From NCBI GenBank assembly GCA_020725025.1, contig DYFV01000001.1, positions 1-64,000 on the forward strand: a stretch of DNA of 64,000 nucleotides. The letters run 5' to 3'. The stretch is from Azoarcus sp. Lineage in GTDB: Bacteria > Pseudomonadota > Gammaproteobacteria > Burkholderiales > Rhodocyclaceae. The position numbers and the translations under genes were made by a program. Below, piece by piece: positions 56,721-63,871 of the stretch; the first letter of the stretch is position 1; every line of letters starts with the position of its first letter. The notes under the pieces are model-generated. The model did no database searches. It saw only the letters and a list, made by a program, of their open reading frames with translations, and was not told where the DNA came from.

Positions 56721-56948
56721 TCACGTGGGGCGGCGAGGGGTGTGGGCCGAGACGACCGCTTCCTCCAGGTCTCGGCAGAACGCGAGCACATCCCGGTCGA
56801 ATCCCGCCTCGCCGTCGAGCCGGTGCAGCAGCAGGCGCGCGACATGCAGCGAGCGCGGGCAGCCCGTCTGCAGGTAGGACGACAGGTGGGCCAGCGTGCC
56901 GGCAAGGACGGCCATCTGGTCGGGTAAGGCAGGCTGGGCGTGGGGCAT
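56721..56948 (-). CDS. Small helical protein, first gene of the S4-paralogue operon
   Basis: The 75-aa protein (MPHAQPALPDQ start) consists of helices: VLAGTLAHLSSYLQTGCPRS, HVARLLLHRLDGE and RDVLAFCRDLEEAVV. It begins 18 bp after a Fur-like dyad and a near-consensus promoter. It resembles the 100-aa protein downstream of the S4 gene, which suggests old duplication. No known family recognised. The 134-bp gap to the S4 gene holds no other gene. Confidence 0.6.
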   Translation of the reverse strand: MPHAQPALPDQMAVLAGTLAHLSSYLQTGCPRSLHVARLLLHRLDGEAGFDRDVLAFCRDLEEAVVSAHTPRRPT

Positions 56949-56959
56949 GGCAATAGATC

Positions 56960-57008
56960 ACGAAATGCGAATCATTCGCGATTGTAAGGAGCCCGGCGCG
57001 TATGTCAA
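56960..57008 (-). promoter_or_regulatory. Strong promoter with Fur-like box ahead of the S4-paralogue operon
   Basis: On the minus strand TTGACA (57003-57008) is followed after 16 bp by TACAAT (56981-56986), near the sigma-70 consensus. The perfect dyad GCGAATGATTCGC (56967-56979) covers the expected start point. GAATnATTC is a Fur-type core, so iron-loaded Fur would block this promoter. Confidence 0.65.
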
Positions 57009-57138: not shown

Positions 57139-57184
57139 TCGACAAGTCGGTAAGTACAAAGTAGAATACGAATGGTTCGCATTT
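57139..57184 (+). promoter_or_regulatory. Promoter with Fur-like box ahead of fecI
   Basis: TCGACA (57139) and TAGAAT (57162) are separated by 17 bp. The partial dyad AATACGAATGGTTCGCATT (57165-57183) overlies the start point and resembles the box of the divergent S4-paralogue operon. The rest of the 308-bp divergent gap shows no gene. Confidence 0.6.
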
Positions 57185-57256: not shown

Positions 57257-57733
57257 GTGTTTGCCTGCTACTACTCGGAACTCGTGAATTACTTCGCCCG
57301 TTCCCTGAACGACCGCGACGCGGCCGCCGACGTCGTGCAGGAGAGCTGCGCGCGCGTGATCGGCATGACCGGCGGGGCGGCCGTGCGCGACATGCGCGCG
57401 CTGCTCTACCGCGTCGGGCGCAACATCGTCATCGACGAGGCGCGCCGGCGCCGGGCCGAGGCTGGCATGCTCGAGACGCTCGCCCTCGTGCAGTGCGACG
57501 AGGCGCCTTCCACCGAGCGCGAGGCGTGCGCCCGCCAGCAGCTCGAGCGGCTGGCGGCCCGTCTGGCCGCGATGCCGCGCAAGCGCTGCGAGGCCTTCGT
57601 GCTCGTGCGCATCTACGGCTTCAGCCATGCCGAGGCGGCCATCCGCCAGGGATGCTCCGAAGCGGCCATCGAGAAGCATGTGGTGCGTGCCGTGTGCGAT
57701 CTGCTCGGCTTGGCCGCCTCCCGTTCGAGCTGA
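57257..57733 (+). CDS. FecI-type ECF sigma factor
   Basis: The 158-aa protein has sigma region 2 (YYSELVNYFARSLNDRDAAADVVQESCARV, LLYRVGRNIVIDEARRRRAE) and region 4 (LAAMPRKRCEAFVLVRIYGFSHAEAA). It starts at a GTG with GGAG upstream. It would direct RNA polymerase to the TonB-receptor promoter when released by the FecR-type protein next to it. Confidence 0.9.
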   Translation: MFACYYSELVNYFARSLNDRDAAADVVQESCARVIGMTGGAAVRDMRALLYRVGRNIVIDEARRRRAEAGMLETLALVQCDEAPSTEREACARQQLERLAARLAAMPRKRCEAFVLVRIYGFSHAEAAIRQGCSEAAIEKHVVRAVCDLLGLAASRSS

Positions 57734-57737
57734 CACG

Positions 57738-58757
57738 ATGGCGCTCGCAGATCCCGGTGCTCAGGCCGAAGCGAAGCCATCGCGCCGGCAGTTCGAGCGT
57801 GCGCTGCTCCTGATCGCCCGTCAGCATGGCGGAGACGCCGCCACCGCCGAGGCGGCCCGGCACGAGCTCGAGCGCTGGCGCCTGACCGACCCCGCCCACG
57901 ACGCCGCGTACCGGGCCGCGCTGCGCGGCTGGGATGCCACCGACGCGAGCGCCCTGCGCGACAGCTTCGTGCTGCCCCCGCCGCGGCGCGAGCATGCCCG
58001 GGCGCGCCGCCGCGTCTTGTCCGCCCTGGCGGTCGGCGGCCTCTTGTTCGGATTGGCCGGCGCAATGAGGTGGATCGCTCAAGCCCCGACCCACGAGCTC
58101 GCACTGACGACCGGGAAGGGGCAGGTCCAGACCGTCAGCCTGCCCGACGGCTCCCGTCTCGACCTCGGCGCGCGGACCAGCGCGCGGGTCGCCTACTATC
58201 GCGATCGGCGCGAGATCCGGCTCGCCGCAGGGGAGATCCGCTTCGACGTCGCGCCCGACGCCGGCCGCCCGCTCGCCGTCGTCACCGACTGGGGGCGCGT
58301 GCGGGTGCTCGGCACCGTCTTCACCGTGGCTGCGCGCGACGCGCGGATGACGGTCGCGGTGGCCGAAGGCAGCGTCGCCGTGTGGCCGGGGGGCATGCCC
58401 GGCGACGCGAACGGCGAGCGAGCGCCGGGCGCCGTGCTTACCGCGGGCCAGCGCATCGAGACCGATGCCGTGCGCCTGGGCGAGCGCGGGCAGGTGCGCC
58501 CCGAGGACGTCGGCGCGTGGCGCCAGGGCTGGCTGGTGTTCGACGGCACGCCCCTCGCCCAGGCGGTCGCGCGCTGGAACGACTACCTCGCCACGCCGCT
58601 CGTGCTCGACGAGGATCCGGCGCTGCGCGGGCTGCGCGTGACCGGCAGCTTTCCGCTGCGTGATCCCGGTGCCTTCGTCGCCAGCCTCCCGGCGATCCTG
58701 CCGGTGCGCGTGACGAAGGGCGCCGACGGCGCGGTCGCGATCACGGCACGACGCTGA
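57738..58757 (+). CDS. FecR-type anti-sigma regulator
   Basis: The 339-aa protein has a cytoplasmic N-terminal DUF4880-like part (about 15-60, FERALLLIARQHGG, LERWRLTDPAHDAAYRAA), one membrane helix (about 94-110, VLSALAVGGLLFGLAGAM) and a periplasmic FecR domain (SLPDGSRLDLGARTSARVAY, VRVLGTVFTVAARD). A C-terminal STN-like stretch receives the signal from the receptor. It relays ligand occupation from the receptor to FecI. Confidence 0.92.
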   Translation: MALADPGAQAEAKPSRRQFERALLLIARQHGGDAATAEAARHELERWRLTDPAHDAAYRAALRGWDATDASALRDSFVLPPPRREHARARRRVLSALAVGGLLFGLAGAMRWIAQAPTHELALTTGKGQVQTVSLPDGSRLDLGARTSARVAYYRDRREIRLAAGEIRFDVAPDAGRPLAVVTDWGRVRVLGTVFTVAARDARMTVAVAEGSVAVWPGGMPGDANGERAPGAVLTAGQRIETDAVRLGERGQVRPEDVGAWRQGWLVFDGTPLAQAVARWNDYLATPLVLDEDPALRGLRVTGSFPLRDPGAFVASLPAILPVRVTKGADGAVAITARR

Positions 58758-58839: not shown

Positions 58840-61326
58840 ATGCACCACGCTTCCACCACTCCCGCCCATCGCCGCGCGCCGCTGCGCCTGCGCACGCTCG
58901 CGCTCGCCTGCGCCGCCTCGTTCGCCTGGCTCGCCGTGCCGCATGCCGCGCACGCGCAGGCCTCTGCCGGCACGGCGCTCGCGGCCGAGCAGCAGTTCGC
59001 CGTCCCCGCGCAGCCCCTCGGCGCCGCGCTCAACGCGCTCGCCCGCGAGGCCGGGGTGGCGATCTCGGTCGACGCCCAACTCGTCGCCGGCAAGCGCGCG
59101 CCCGCCGTGGAGGGTGCCATGACCCTGCGCGAGGCGCTCGACCGCGTGCTCGCCGACAGCGGCCTCGCCGCGAGCGCGAACGGTTCCGTGGTGATCGTCA
59201 AGGCCGCACCGAAGCCGACCGCCGCGGCCGAGGTCGCGCTCGCCGAGGTGAAGGTCACCGCCAGCGCCGACGCCTCGGCCGGCGGCCTGACCGAACCCTA
59301 TGCGGGCGGGCAGGTGGCACGCGGCGGTCGGGTCGGCATCCTGGGCAACCGGGACATCATGGAGACGCCGTTCAACGCCACGAGCTACACCAACGAGTTG
59401 ATCCAGGACCAGCAGGCGAAGAGCGTCGGCGACGTGCTCCTGAACGACCCGGCGGTGCGCGTCGCCCGCGGCTTCGGCAACTTCCAGGAGTCGTACTTCA
59501 TCCGCGGCTTCCTGCTCAACTCCGACCACGTCGCCTACAACGGCCTCTACAGCCTGCTGCCCCGGCAGTACATCTCCGCGGAGCTCTTCGAGCGGGTGGA
59601 GGTGCTGCGCGGCGCATCGGCATTCCTCACCGGGGCGACGCCGGGCGGCGACGGCATCGGCGGCACCGTCAACCTGCTGCCCAAGCGCGCACCGAACGAT
59701 CCGCTCATGCGGCTCACCGTCGGCGGCGCGAGCGGCGAGCAGGGCTACGTCACGGCAGACGTGGCGCGCCGATTCGGGCCCGAGGAGAGCACCGGCGTGC
59801 GGCTGGTGGCCGCGCACCGGGAGGGTGGCACCAGCATCGAGGACGAGCGCGTCGAGCTCGGCGTGGCGCTGGTCGGCGTGGATTGGCGCGGCGACAAGGC
59901 GCGTCTTTCCGCCGACGTGGGCTACCAGGATCACCGGCTGCGCGAGACGCGCACCAACGTGACGCTGGGCGGGGCCGTCCGCGTCGTGCCGTCCGCCCCG
60001 GACAGCGACGGCAACTGGGCCCAGCCGTGGACCTACTCCAACGAGCGCGACACCTTCGGCACGCTGCGCGGCGAGTACGACTTCGCGCCGTATCTCACCG
60101 GCTGGCTCGCCGCCGGCGCCCGCCGCAGCGAGGAAGCCAACTCGCTCGCCAACATCACCGTCACCAATGCGAGTACGGGTGCCGCCACGACCTACCGCTT
60201 CGACAACACCCGCGAGGACAGTGTCGATACCGCCGAGGCCGGCCTGCGCGGCAAGCTGCGCACCGGGCCGGTCGGCCATGAATGGGTCGTGTCCGGGTCG
60301 TGGTTCGAGCTGGAGAAGAAGAACGCGTACGCGATGGACTTCTTCAACACCCGGGCGACCAACCTCTACGACCCGGTCGACTGGCCGCAGCCGGCGATCA
60401 GCGGCGCAGCCTTCCGCGGCAACGACCTGGCCTCCCCCGAGCTGACGGGGCGCACGCAGCTCGCGAGTCTCGCCCTGGGCGACACGCTGTCGCTGCTCGA
60501 CGACCGGCTGCTCGTGACGCTGGGCGTACGCCGCCAGGCGCTCTACGCCGCGAACTATGCGTACAACAGCGGCGTGCGCACCAGCCGCTACGACAAGAGC
60601 CGCTCGAGCCCGGTGGTGGGCGTGGTGTACAAGCTCCGGCCGGACCTCTCCGTCTACGGCAACTACATCGAGGCGCTCACCCAGGGCGAGACGGCGCCGG
60701 GCACCGCAGACAACCGCGGCGAGATGCTCGCCCCCTACGTCTCCAGGCAGAAGGAGATGGGCGTCAAGTACGACGGCGGCCGCGTGGGCGGCGTGCTCGC
60801 GATCTTCTCCACCGAGAAGCCGCGCGCCTTCGTGAATCCCGCCAACGTCTTCGAGGCCGAAGGCGAGGACCGCCACCGCGGCCTCGAGCTCACCGCCTAC
60901 GGCGAGCCCGTGCGCGGGCTGAAGGTGCTGGGCGGGGTGACCTTCCTCGATGCGGAGCAGGCCGATACCGGCAACCCCGCCACGGAAGGCAAGCAGGTGA
61001 TCGGCGTGCCCAACCGGCAGGCCAACCTGGGCGTGGAATGGCGCGTGCCGGGCGCGACGGGGCTTTCGCTCGACGCCCGCGTGATCGCCACCGGGTCCTT
61101 CTACGCCAACGCCACCAACACGCTGCGCGTGCCTGGCTGGTCGCGGCTGGACGTGGGCGCGCGCTATCTCGCCGAAGTGGGCGGGCGGCTGGTCACCTTG
61201 CGTGCCCGCGTCGACAACCTCACCGATCGCGACTACTGGGCCTCGGCCGGCGGCTTCCCCGGCAGGGGCTACCTGGTGCTCGGCGCGCCGCGCACCTTCA
61301 CCCTCAGCGCTTCCATCGACCTATGA
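58840..61326 (+). CDS. TonB-dependent siderophore receptor with signalling (STN) domain
   Basis: The 828-aa outer-membrane protein has a signal peptide (about 1-39, ending HAAHAQ), an STN signalling domain (about 50-120, FAVPAQPLGAALNALAREAGVAIS), a plug (about 150-280, FIRGF, VEVLRGASAFLTG) and a 22-strand barrel ending in ASIDL. The STN domain marks it as a transducer that signals through FecR/FecI. The ligand is a siderophore of unknown type; no biosynthesis genes are present. Confidence 0.93.
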   Translation: MHHASTTPAHRRAPLRLRTLALACAASFAWLAVPHAAHAQASAGTALAAEQQFAVPAQPLGAALNALAREAGVAISVDAQLVAGKRAPAVEGAMTLREALDRVLADSGLAASANGSVVIVKAAPKPTAAAEVALAEVKVTASADASAGGLTEPYAGGQVARGGRVGILGNRDIMETPFNATSYTNELIQDQQAKSVGDVLLNDPAVRVARGFGNFQESYFIRGFLLNSDHVAYNGLYSLLPRQYISAELFERVEVLRGASAFLTGATPGGDGIGGTVNLLPKRAPNDPLMRLTVGGASGEQGYVTADVARRFGPEESTGVRLVAAHREGGTSIEDERVELGVALVGVDWRGDKARLSADVGYQDHRLRETRTNVTLGGAVRVVPSAPDSDGNWAQPWTYSNERDTFGTLRGEYDFAPYLTGWLAAGARRSEEANSLANITVTNASTGAATTYRFDNTREDSVDTAEAGLRGKLRTGPVGHEWVVSGSWFELEKKNAYAMDFFNTRATNLYDPVDWPQPAISGAAFRGNDLASPELTGRTQLASLALGDTLSLLDDRLLVTLGVRRQALYAANYAYNSGVRTSRYDKSRSSPVVGVVYKLRPDLSVYGNYIEALTQGETAPGTADNRGEMLAPYVSRQKEMGVKYDGGRVGGVLAIFSTEKPRAFVNPANVFEAEGEDRHRGLELTAYGEPVRGLKVLGGVTFLDAEQADTGNPATEGKQVIGVPNRQANLGVEWRVPGATGLSLDARVIATGSFYANATNTLRVPGWSRLDVGARYLAEVGGRLVTLRARVDNLTDRDYWASAGGFPGRGYLVLGAPRTFTLSASIDL

Positions 61327-62651
61327 CCCCGACAGGCCCCTCGCGTCCGGGATGGCGCGGCTTCTGGACCTTCGCCCACCGCTACCTCGGGCTCGTGGCC
61401 GCGCCCTTCCTGTTCGTGACGGGGCTCACCGGCGCGGTGATCTCGTGGGACCACGAGCTCGACGATCTCCTCAATCCGCATCTCGTGGAGGCGCGCGCGA
61501 GCGGACCGGCGTTGCCGCCGCTCGAGCTCGCGCGCGAGATCGAAGCGCGCTACCCCGAGCTGCGGGTGACCTTCGTGCCGCTCGCGGTGGAGCCGGGCCA
61601 CTCCCTCGGCTTCGGCGTGCAGCCGAGGGTCGACCCGGCCACCGGGCGGCTGCACGAGCCCGGCTTCAACCAGGTCTTCATGGATCCTGCGAGCGGCGAG
61701 GAGCTGGGCAAGCGCGAATGGGGCGCGGTGTGGCCGATCACCAGCGAGAACTTCGTCTCCTTCCTGTACAAGCTGCACTTCAGCCTGCATCTGCCGGAAA
61801 TCGGCGGCATCGACCGCTGGGGCATCTGGCTGCTGGGCATTATCGCCATCGGCTGGACGCTCGACTGCTTCGTCGGCTTCTACCTCACGCTGCCGGCGCG
61901 GCGGCGGGCGAGGGCGGTCGACGACGAAGCCGCGGATGAGGCGGCCCTGGCCGGGCGCAGCTTCTGGCAGCGCTGGAAGCCCGCCTGGAAGGTGCGCCGC
62001 AAGGCCGGCACCTACAAGCTCAACTACGACCTGCATCGCGCCTTCTCCCTATGGACCTGGCTGCTGCTCTTCATCGTCGCCTTCACTGCCTTCTCGCTCA
62101 ACCTGCGGCGCGAGGTGTTCTTTCCGATGATGAGCATGGTCTCGCAGGTGACGCCGACGCCTTTCGACGTGCGCAAGCCGCAGCCGCTGCATGCGCCGCT
62201 GGACCCCGCGGTCGGTTTCGCCGAGATCATCGAGCGCGCCTCGGCCGAAGCGGGTCGGCGCGGCTGGCAGGAGCCGGCCGGCAGCGTCTTCTACGCCCAG
62301 CACTTCGGCATCTATGGCGTGCAGTTCTTCCATCCCGAGAGCGACCATGGCAGCGGCGGTGTCGGGCACAAGCGCCTCTACTACGACGGCGCGGACGGGC
62401 GGCTCCTGGGAGAGCGACTGCCGTGGAAGGGGACGGCAGCGGACATCTTCGTTCAGGCGCAGTTTCCGCTGCACTCCGGGCGCATCCTGGGGCTGCCGGG
62501 TCGCATCCTGATCTCGGTGATGGGCCTGGTGATCGCCATGCTGTCGGTCACCGGCGTGTATATCTGGTGGAAGAAGCGCGCGGCGCGGCTGAAGTCGGCG
62601 GTCCGTCGGCAGGCGGACGGGAAGCTTGCGGCCGGGGCAGTTCTGGATTGA
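61323..62651 (+). CDS. PepSY-associated membrane protein
   Basis: The 442-aa protein has four main membrane helices (FAHRYLGLVAAPFLFVTGLTGAVIS start; WGIWLLGIIAIGWTLDCFVGFYLTL; LWTWLLLFIVAFTAFSLN; ISVMGLVIAMLSVTGVYIWWKKR) and the PepSY_TM layout common beside TonB receptors. Such proteins are thought to reduce ferric siderophores in the periplasm or inner membrane. It overlaps the receptor gene stop by 4 bp. Confidence 0.9.
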   Translation: MTPTGPSRPGWRGFWTFAHRYLGLVAAPFLFVTGLTGAVISWDHELDDLLNPHLVEARASGPALPPLELAREIEARYPELRVTFVPLAVEPGHSLGFGVQPRVDPATGRLHEPGFNQVFMDPASGEELGKREWGAVWPITSENFVSFLYKLHFSLHLPEIGGIDRWGIWLLGIIAIGWTLDCFVGFYLTLPARRRARAVDDEAADEAALAGRSFWQRWKPAWKVRRKAGTYKLNYDLHRAFSLWTWLLLFIVAFTAFSLNLRREVFFPMMSMVSQVTPTPFDVRKPQPLHAPLDPAVGFAEIIERASAEAGRRGWQEPAGSVFYAQHFGIYGVQFFHPESDHGSGGVGHKRLYYDGADGRLLGERLPWKGTAADIFVQAQFPLHSGRILGLPGRILISVMGLVIAMLSVTGVYIWWKKRAARLKSAVRRQADGKLAAGAVLD

Positions 62652-62710: not shown

Positions 62711-63871
62711 ATGTCCCGACCCCTCTCCCGAGTCGCTCCCTTCATCGTCGCCGCCACGCTGCTGACCGTCGGTGCCGCGCAGGCCCAGGAGCCGTCCCGC
62801 AAGGCGGTGCTCGAGAATTACGCCACCATCGTGTACGCGAGCTATGCGGACAGCCTCGCCGCCGCGCGCGACCTGCAGGCCGCCGTCGAGGCCTTCGTGG
62901 CGCAGCCTTCCGAGGCCGGTCTGGAGAAGGCCCGCAAGGCCTGGCTGGAGGCGCGCGAGTGGTACGGCCAGAGCGAGGCCTTCCGCTTCTACGGCGGCCC
63001 GATCGACGGAGAGGAGGGGCCCGAGGGTTTGATCAACGCCTGGCCGCTGGACGAGGCCTACATCGACTACGTGGAGGGCCGCCCCGACGCGGGCCTCATC
63101 AACGATCGCACCCAGGAGATCACGCCGGCGCGGCTCGCCGAGCTCAACGAGCGCGGCGGCGAGGAGAACGTCGCCACCGGCTGGCACGCCATCGAGTTCC
63201 TGCTGTGGGGGCAGGACCGGAGCGAGAGCGGGCCGGGCGCGCGCAAGTACACCGACTTCGTGGACGGGCAGGCACCCAACGCCGACCGCCGTCGTCTCTA
63301 CCTGAAGACCGTCTCGGCGATGCTGGTGGACGAGCTCGAAGGGGTGGCCCAGGCGTGGGCGCCGGGCAAGAAGAACTATCGCGCGGAGTTCGTCGCCGCC
63401 GGGCAGGACGGCGTGCGCCGGATCCTCACCGGGCTGGGCACGCTCTCGCGGGGCGAGCTCGCCGGCGAGCGCATGGAAGTGGCGATGGACACCCAGGACC
63501 AGGAGGACGAGCACTCCTGCTTCTCCGACAACACCCACCGCGACGTCGTCACCAACGCCCAGGGTATTCGCAACGTGTGGGAAGGCGGCTACCTCACGCG
63601 CGATGGGCGCACCATCGCCGGCCCCGGAGTGAAGGCGCTGGTGGCGCAGAAGAACCCGACGCTCGCCGAGGCGGTGAGCCGCGACATCGCCGAGAGCGTC
63701 GAGCGCGCCGAGGCGATCGAGGCGCCTTTCGACCGCGAGATCGTGGGTGACGACGCCGCGGCCGGCCGCAAGCGCGTGCGCGCGGTCATCGACGCGCTCA
63801 AGAAGCAGGCCGACGGGTTGGTCGAGGCGGCCAAGGCGCTGGGCATCAAGCGCCTGAACACCAGCGTCTGA
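62711..63871 (+). CDS. Imelysin family iron-regulated periplasmic protein
   Basis: The 386-aa protein has a Sec signal ending AAQAQ near residue 26 and the imelysin-like motif GWHAIEFLLWGQD (GxHxxE) around residue 158. It further shows DTQDQEDEHSCFSDNTHRD, typical of the IrpA/ICMP subgroup. These are Fur-regulated periplasmic or outer-membrane-associated proteins that assist iron uptake; no protease activity is expected. AGAAGG precedes the start. Confidence 0.9.
   Translation: MSRPLSRVAPFIVAATLLTVGAAQAQEPSRKAVLENYATIVYASYADSLAAARDLQAAVEAFVAQPSEAGLEKARKAWLEAREWYGQSEAFRFYGGPIDGEEGPEGLINAWPLDEAYIDYVEGRPDAGLINDRTQEITPARLAELNERGGEENVATGWHAIEFLLWGQDRSESGPGARKYTDFVDGQAPNADRRRLYLKTVSAMLVDELEGVAQAWAPGKKNYRAEFVAAGQDGVRRILTGLGTLSRGELAGERMEVAMDTQDQEDEHSCFSDNTHRDVVTNAQGIRNVWEGGYLTRDGRTIAGPGVKALVAQKNPTLAEAVSRDIAESVERAEAIEAPFDREIVGDDAAAGRKRVRAVIDALKKQADGLVEAAKALGIKRLNTSV

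Follow-up and report, generated by a model that had tools for sequence, protein, structure and literature searches.

Why should a bacterium keep an additional gene for ribosomal protein S4 outside the alpha operon, behind a promoter that carries an iron-type box and divergent from iron-uptake genes? This question is raised by the first 64,000 nucleotides of contig DYFV01000001.1 of Azoarcus sp. (GCA_020725025.1), the stretch that was analysed here and that we refer to as the window. The S4 operon is read on the minus strand in the order P0002 - S4 - P0003, and its features are listed in Table 1 together with those of the plus strand, where the genes for FecI, FecR, a TonB receptor, a PepSY-like protein and imelysin form an iron-uptake cluster. 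The initial annotation described a full-length S4 gene behind a near-consensus promoter with a dyad over its start, and the sequence scan agrees: the window S4 (P0001) scores above the cut-offs of TIGR01017 and NF003717 and contains the PF00163 and PF01479 domains, which makes it a full-length bacterial uS4. Between 55650 and 57300 only two promoter-like sites were found, one of the S4 operon and one of fecI, compared to a mean of 0.1 in shuffled sequences. The perfect dyad at the S4 promoter, GCGAATCATTCGC, was located at 56967-56979, and since this promoter ends at 56981 the expected start point falls within the dyad. The divergent fecI promoter with a similar box was found as well, and the two small unknown proteins described as coupled to S4 are indeed so and belong to one family, as one profile recovers both P0002 and P0003. 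The span 56721-57008, to which the operon had been assigned, contains the promoter and the first small ORF, whereas S4 itself lies outside of it. The designation of S4 as Cys-free was wrong, because Cys154 is present as its only cysteine; the missing part is the N-terminal CxxC or four-cysteine cluster.

Table 1. Features of the S4 operon and of the divergent iron-uptake cluster in the window.
Feature	Position	Strand	Basis or remark
P0003, small protein, 100 aa	55676..55978	-	GTG start, GTGA overlap with the stop of S4; small helical family, as P0002
C-minus ribosomal protein S4 paralogue, 203 aa	55975..56586	-	GTG start; TIGR01017, NF003717, PF00163, PF01479
P0002, small protein, 75 aa, first operon gene	56721..56948	-	small helical family of S4 loci; no Pfam/NCBIfam match
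Candidate Fur-type operator at the S4 operon promoter start	56964..56982	.	perfect 13-bp dyad 56967-56979; matrix 20.8
Sigma-70-like promoter of the S4 operon	56981..57008	-	TTGACA-16-TACAAT; 11/12 consensus positions
Sigma-70-like fecI promoter	57139..57167	+	TCGACA-17-TAGAAT; promoter scan
Second candidate Fur-type operator, fecI promoter	57165..57183	.	matrix 22.2
FecI-type ECF sigma factor	57257..57733	+	PF08281, PF07638, PF04542; FecI models match below curated cut-offs
FecR-type anti-sigma/signal protein	57738..58757	+	PF04773
TonB-dependent receptor with STN signalling domain	58840..61326	+	PF00593, PF07715, PF07660
PepSY-like membrane protein of the iron cluster	61323..62651	+	named by reading of the sequence, no domain scan
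Imelysin (Peptidase_M75), iron-related	62711..63871	+	PF09375

The objection that the window gene might be the sole S4 fails, because the search for a second rpsD revealed three S4 genes in the genome: a C+ S4 of the alpha operon, placed between S11 and rpoA, and two C-minus copies, one in the window and one on contig C77. The window S4 is 80% identical to the C77 copy and 42% to the C+ S4. It belongs to the C-minus paralogue class, having no C-x2-C...C-x4-C motif and lying outside the alpha operon, with the C+ copy inside. It is less certain that C77 belongs to this genome, because its tetranucleotide likeness is lower (r 0.958-0.976) than that among three stretches of the window and one of contig C31 (0.988-0.993); for two stretches of other genera against window, C31 and C77, r was 0.908-0.958. 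The contamination of the assembly is 5.03%.

The palindrome AATGCGAATCATTCGCATT (19 bp, up to three mismatches) occurs at eight distinct places in the 5.44-Mb genome and its reversed control at none, and chance was rejected on these grounds as the origin of the dyad. Two mismatches are found at four of the eight places, which include both boxes of the window. According to a Pfam scan of ORFs, two of the other six places lie at ECF sigma genes and one each at genes for a TonB receptor, for an ABC-type solute-binding protein and for a CRP-type regulator, the last with a weak CopD neighbour. The sixth place, on C31, is near an ORF without family, and an ORF that we read as bacterioferritin-like lies about 0.5 kb from this place. 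The 7-1-7 inverted repeat over the S4 promoter is therefore common to iron-type genes of the same genome, as is characteristic of a Fur regulon. The comparison of the dyad with Fur motifs gave a divided result: by the matrix derived from sites of relatives (see below) the window boxes score 20.8 and 22.2, whereas by the plain textbook Fur consensus they reach just 11/17, with 12/19 for the best site of the operon, which is below the cut-offs of the family counts.

To which extent this arrangement is shared can be seen from the relatives. S4 (P0001)-like genes were found in 57 of 199 sampled family genomes (E <= 1e-50, own genome included), in 32 of 399 of the order sample (E <= 1e-45), at least 11 of these being C-minus S4s from alpha operons with 43-45% identity, and in 4 of 369 of the class sample (E <= 1e-58, own included), but in none of the five sampled genomes of the same genus. 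The sampled relatives and the 20 closest of 80 named loci, among the latter Azoarcus, Thauera, Zoogloea, Denitromonas, Methylobacillus, Methylovorus and Uliginosibacterium, gave 78 non-redundant paralogue loci. Ten duplicate loci were left out, as were the C77 copy (L171), which is handled apart, and L170 of genome G027, which falls under the 54% identity cut and has a box at -9.35 kb. A CxxC within the first 45 residues is present in none of the 78 paralogues, and 44 of them have no cysteine whatever. In comparison, all 42 alpha-operon S4s that were read contain the C-x2-C...C-x4-C motif and lie beside S11 and rpoA; 22 of these come from genomes also carrying a C-minus copy.

Using the 19-mer Fur consensus with at least 13 matches, a box is present in the 500 nt upstream of 31/78 loci, compared to 121/7800 dinucleotide shuffles and 0/78 S4 bodies; the window locus, with 12 matches, is not among the 31. 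Boxes were also found in 14/78 of the 500-nt stretches downstream, where they presumably belong to the start of the next iron gene. The sites found yield the motif ATGmrAATCATTmTCAT, and the matrix was built from 24 distinct sites that it also scores (leave-one-out, 23/24 at >=16.5). With a score of at least 17, this matrix finds a site within 1500 nt upstream of 51/78 loci, in 4/1560 mononucleotide shuffles and in 0/78 S4 bodies. As a further control served 60 other S4 loci (L024-L083), many from cyanobacteria, of which 5 have the four-cysteine motif and 55 lack it. None of the 60 reaches this score, and 2 of the 11 alpha-operon C-minus S4s of the order do (L194, L195). An untrained palindrome points in the same direction: at >=13/17 it occurs at 30/78 paralogue loci, 0/59 other S4 loci (one of the 60 had too little upstream DNA) and 3/1560 shuffles, and at the looser 12/17 at 45/78, 5/59 and 33/1560, respectively. 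Chance as the origin of the family-wide boxes was rejected by the shuffle, S4-body and other-locus controls. The comparison of neighbourhoods proposed in the initial annotation thus yielded a Fur-type box near the C-minus S4 paralogue in 22 sampled genera. Fur control of the S4 operon is a prediction well supported at the level of sequence.

In genomes that hold both S4 types, 40 of 59 loci have such a near box (matrix >=17, 1.5 kb), and 19 of the 27 loci without one come from such genomes. Three of these 19 have a box within 6 kb. Of the remaining 16, all but one have a box about 8-15 kb upstream, two of these 15 boxes being weak (17.8 and 18.6); these far boxes are weaker evidence, because iron clusters hold several boxes anyway. 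Even for a distant S4 of family f19 (genome G305), which is 42% identical to the window S4 and contains a pair of N-terminal cysteines without CxxC, a box of 30.7 lies upstream at a distance of about 58 bp, and a C+ partner is present in the genome, whereas its sister genus g208 (three genomes, 66-81% complete) shows neither box nor C+ partner.

Besides the boxes, the paralogues share their neighbours. Iron-uptake genes are found within 1.5 kb of 52/78 paralogue loci vs. 0/41 alpha-operon loci, using query proteins drawn from these same loci and the window, and the neighbours across the relatives comprise FeoB, FecI, TonB/ExbBD, TonB receptors, ChaN and a CobN-type chelatase. Furthermore, a member of the small protein family stands beside 64/78 paralogues, and 79 of 80 hits lie on the S4 strand, as seen with a profile that was iterated on these paralogue loci. 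None of the few members tested has a Pfam or NCBIfam match above cut-off, the best Pfam hits being far below. The AlphaFold2 model of P0003 has four helices (mean pLDDT 85.8), and a Foldseek search of the PDB with the small-protein model gave 151 matches at E <= 10 and none at E <= 0.001. The family is not exclusive to S4, since it occurs in 87/199 family genomes and also without S4; among 20 chosen loci from paralogue-free genomes, each examined over at most 4.5 kb, 11 have a box, which in 10 cases lies no more than 0.5 kb upstream. Judged from these searches, it is an undescribed helical family linked to putative Fur-type boxes. Members without S4 are sometimes found near TonB/ExbB genes, and many members end in His. 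Several Methylophilaceae loci (L016-L019, L176, L178-L180) contain a different conserved small protein downstream of S4, mostly with a CxxC, and the one tested (L176) has no Pfam match.

In some genomes no S4 apart from the C-minus one was found. Among those of at least 90% completeness a near box is present in one of eight: G013 (100% complete) keeps it with a score of 24.2, against the pattern, whereas G047, G102, G222, G268, G739, G850 and G944 are boxless. Compared to the 40/59 loci of two-type genomes, this corresponds to a one-sided Fisher p of 0.004, uncorrected for relatedness. Of the less complete C-minus-only genomes, G035 (82%) and G321 (78%) have a box, and G090, G580 and the three g208 genomes have none. 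In family f25, which contains loci of Methylobacillus and Methylovorus and can therefore be assigned to the Methylophilaceae, the boxes of the C+-keeping genomes G311, G384, G500 and G528 score 25-29, whereas the sampled Methylobacillus genomes G222 and G268 have one S4 match each and no box. Two C-minus-only genomes of genus g47 lack box, small protein and iron neighbour altogether, and these are the only 2 of the 78 loci with none of the three. In the tree, the boxless Methylobacillus and g47 lie next to or within box-bearing groups. Genomes in which no S4 other than the C-minus one was found accordingly lack the predicted operator in most cases. Since this protein is the sole S4 found in several near-complete genomes, it can probably serve as general ribosomal S4.

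Which metal is at stake depends on the C+ S4. The cysteine cluster of Thermus S4 binds Fe4S4 (PMC6555806; also PMC11791143, PMC10450194), and the C+ S4 of our genome aligns with Thermus thermophilus S4 without gaps over residues 1-49, with the four cysteines in register. An Fe4S4 cluster on S4 would explain an iron operator better than the zinc analogy does. The initial annotation had inferred an iron-type operator alongside the known Zur-controlled paralogues; the operator is supported across the relatives by boxes, iron genes and the small family, whereas the analogy to zinc may name the wrong metal. A second, C-minus S4 behind an iron-type switch among iron genes suggests that some relatives of Azoarcus and Thauera alter a part of the ribosome and thereby save iron. 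An iron-sparing swap of S4 under the control of Fur is the explanation that we favour and consider reasonably probable. Fur-Fe(II), bound over the promoter start, would repress P0002-S4-P0003, and under iron shortage the operon would be derepressed together with the divergent genes for FecI, FecR and the TonB receptor. Newly made C+ S4, provided that it carries a cluster in these species, would then be left without it; C-minus S4 may take the place of the alpha-operon S4 in new 30S subunits, and 30S assembly would then need no [4Fe-4S] cluster (or another metal) for S4. The small proteins may help in the swap, perhaps as S4 chaperones, assembly helpers or regulators. What can be read directly from the genomes are the multiple S4 types, the loss of the cluster motif, the predicted Fur-type operator at many relatives and the context of iron genes and small proteins.

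The cysteines of betaproteobacterial C+ S4 could hold zinc instead, and the C-minus spare would then be an ordinary case of zinc economy with a fortuitous link to Fur, or to a Fur-family zinc sensor that recognises this box. In Chen et al. (2009; PMC3087516) the C+ cluster is taken to bind zinc and the C-minus forms are explained by zinc economy, and a zinc sensor probably exists in our genome, because of its three FUR-family genes one is Zur-like and adjoins an ABC ATPase that reads like ZnuC (of the other two, one is Irr/PerR-like and one was not classified; both classified genes score below the curated cut-offs). Nevertheless, we regard this reading as unlikely, since boxes of this type stand elsewhere in our genome at genes for ECF sigma factors, a TonB receptor and an ABC binding protein, the neighbours in the relatives are iron genes such as feoB, fecI, those for TonB/ExbBD and ChaN and that for the CobN-type chelatase, and Chen et al. 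(PMC3087516) found no Zur site at any S4 paralogue. A simple regex found no Zur-type candidate site in the C31 region of the Zur-like gene or at the only L31 locus found, which is a weak negative. The Irr/PerR-like gene, also on C31, lies between genes that we read as cytochrome-c-peroxidase-like and bacterioferritin-like, with a Fur-type site at C31:32758.

The loss of the cluster could also be incidental, with the paralogue forming a specialised or error-prone ribosome under iron stress or acting as an extraribosomal RNA-binding regulator. Mutations in uS4 alter translational accuracy and survival of oxidative stress (PMC12186496), other C-minus S4 paralogues of Clostridia rise in sporulation (PMC3087516), and a protein just 42% identical to the main S4 that is accompanied by small helical proteins in 64/78 cases would fit such a role; yet it has the domain content and equivalog scores of a normal S4 and is the only S4 found in several near-complete genomes, which makes a special function quite improbable. 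That S4 came in by horizontal transfer as a passenger of mobile clusters for iron uptake, and is expressed along with these but has no role in iron stress, agrees with its absence from the five sampled same-genus genomes and with the horizontal transfer of C-minus S4 inferred by Chen et al. (PMC3087516). A passenger should hardly be expected here, however, as the partners vary (FeoB, FecI, ExbBD, CobN/ChaN, TonB receptors) and yet Fur-type boxes and small family are mostly kept, and box and C+ S4 are mostly missing together.

Similar to the Zur-controlled C-minus paralogues of L31 (RpmE2), L33, L36 (RpmJ2) and S14, the window S4 is a cluster-free paralogue outside the ribosomal operons with an operator of the Fur-family type. 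In contrast to those, the operator is Fur-type, the neighbours are iron genes, and the protein concerned is S4, which in Thermus holds [4Fe-4S] and not zinc. Fur-controlled iron-sparing responses exchange iron enzymes for iron-free ones, alongside iron uptake. The proposed swap would resemble them in the derepression of an iron-free substitute beside iron uptake and differ from them in that the substituted part is a ribosomal protein. We know of no earlier iron-controlled swap of a ribosomal protein, and no link of Fur to an S4 paralogue was found in titles and abstract openings of the papers searched. The pairing itself corresponds to the C-(IV) S4 paralogues of Chen, Roberts and Luthey-Schulten (2009; PMC3087516), with C-minus outside and C+ inside the alpha operon; their two-S4 genomes include Methylobacillus flagellatus, with two C-minus copies, and Nitrosomonas europaea. 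Unlike in their account, in which Zur sites were sought and zinc economy was proposed, a Fur-type box, a small partner protein and an iron context are found here. C+/C-minus pairs of S4 are thus known, and what would be new is a metal-economy switch of the ribosome in which iron replaces zinc. If true, this would be the first swap of a ribosomal protein under iron control that is known to us and would answer why C-minus S4 paralogues have no Zur sites. It would tie the composition of the ribosome to iron via Fur, help to settle the lack of Zur sites that PMC3087516 left unexplained, and make the function of the puzzling S4 [4Fe-4S] cluster testable in ordinary mesophilic bacteria.

The third S4 gene lies in a different setting (L171, C77: 15000-24500; S4 at L171:4012-4623, minus strand). 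It is flanked by a CusA/CzcA pump gene on one side and by genes that we read as NfeD/slipin-like on the other, CzcE follows, and box scan and profile search found neither a Fur-type box nor a small-family protein at this locus. Possibly it is a copper or heavy-metal counterpart of the window S4. Copper damages Fe-S clusters, and for this reason the CusA/CzcE neighbourhood fits the iron-sparing view. A more general proposal, that ribosomes of mesophiles carry an Fe-S cluster in S4, that Fur swaps S4 to an iron-free form in iron starvation with the help of a small-protein partner family, and that the C77 copy does likewise under copper or metal stress that destroys Fe-S clusters, is tentative, and we would neither bet on it nor firmly against it.

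One of the far boxes belongs to an extended cluster. In genome G011 (L284, L238) it lies just upstream of the TonB-receptor gene, and the subsequent genes run in the direction of S4 in the order TonB receptor - CobN-type chelatase (PF02514) - ExbB-like - DUF2149 - small protein - S4. An ORF on the opposite strand over the small gene, given by a simple ORF caller, was taken as spurious. It is possible that this cluster constitutes a route for de-metallation of haem or porphyrin that ends in the S4 spare.
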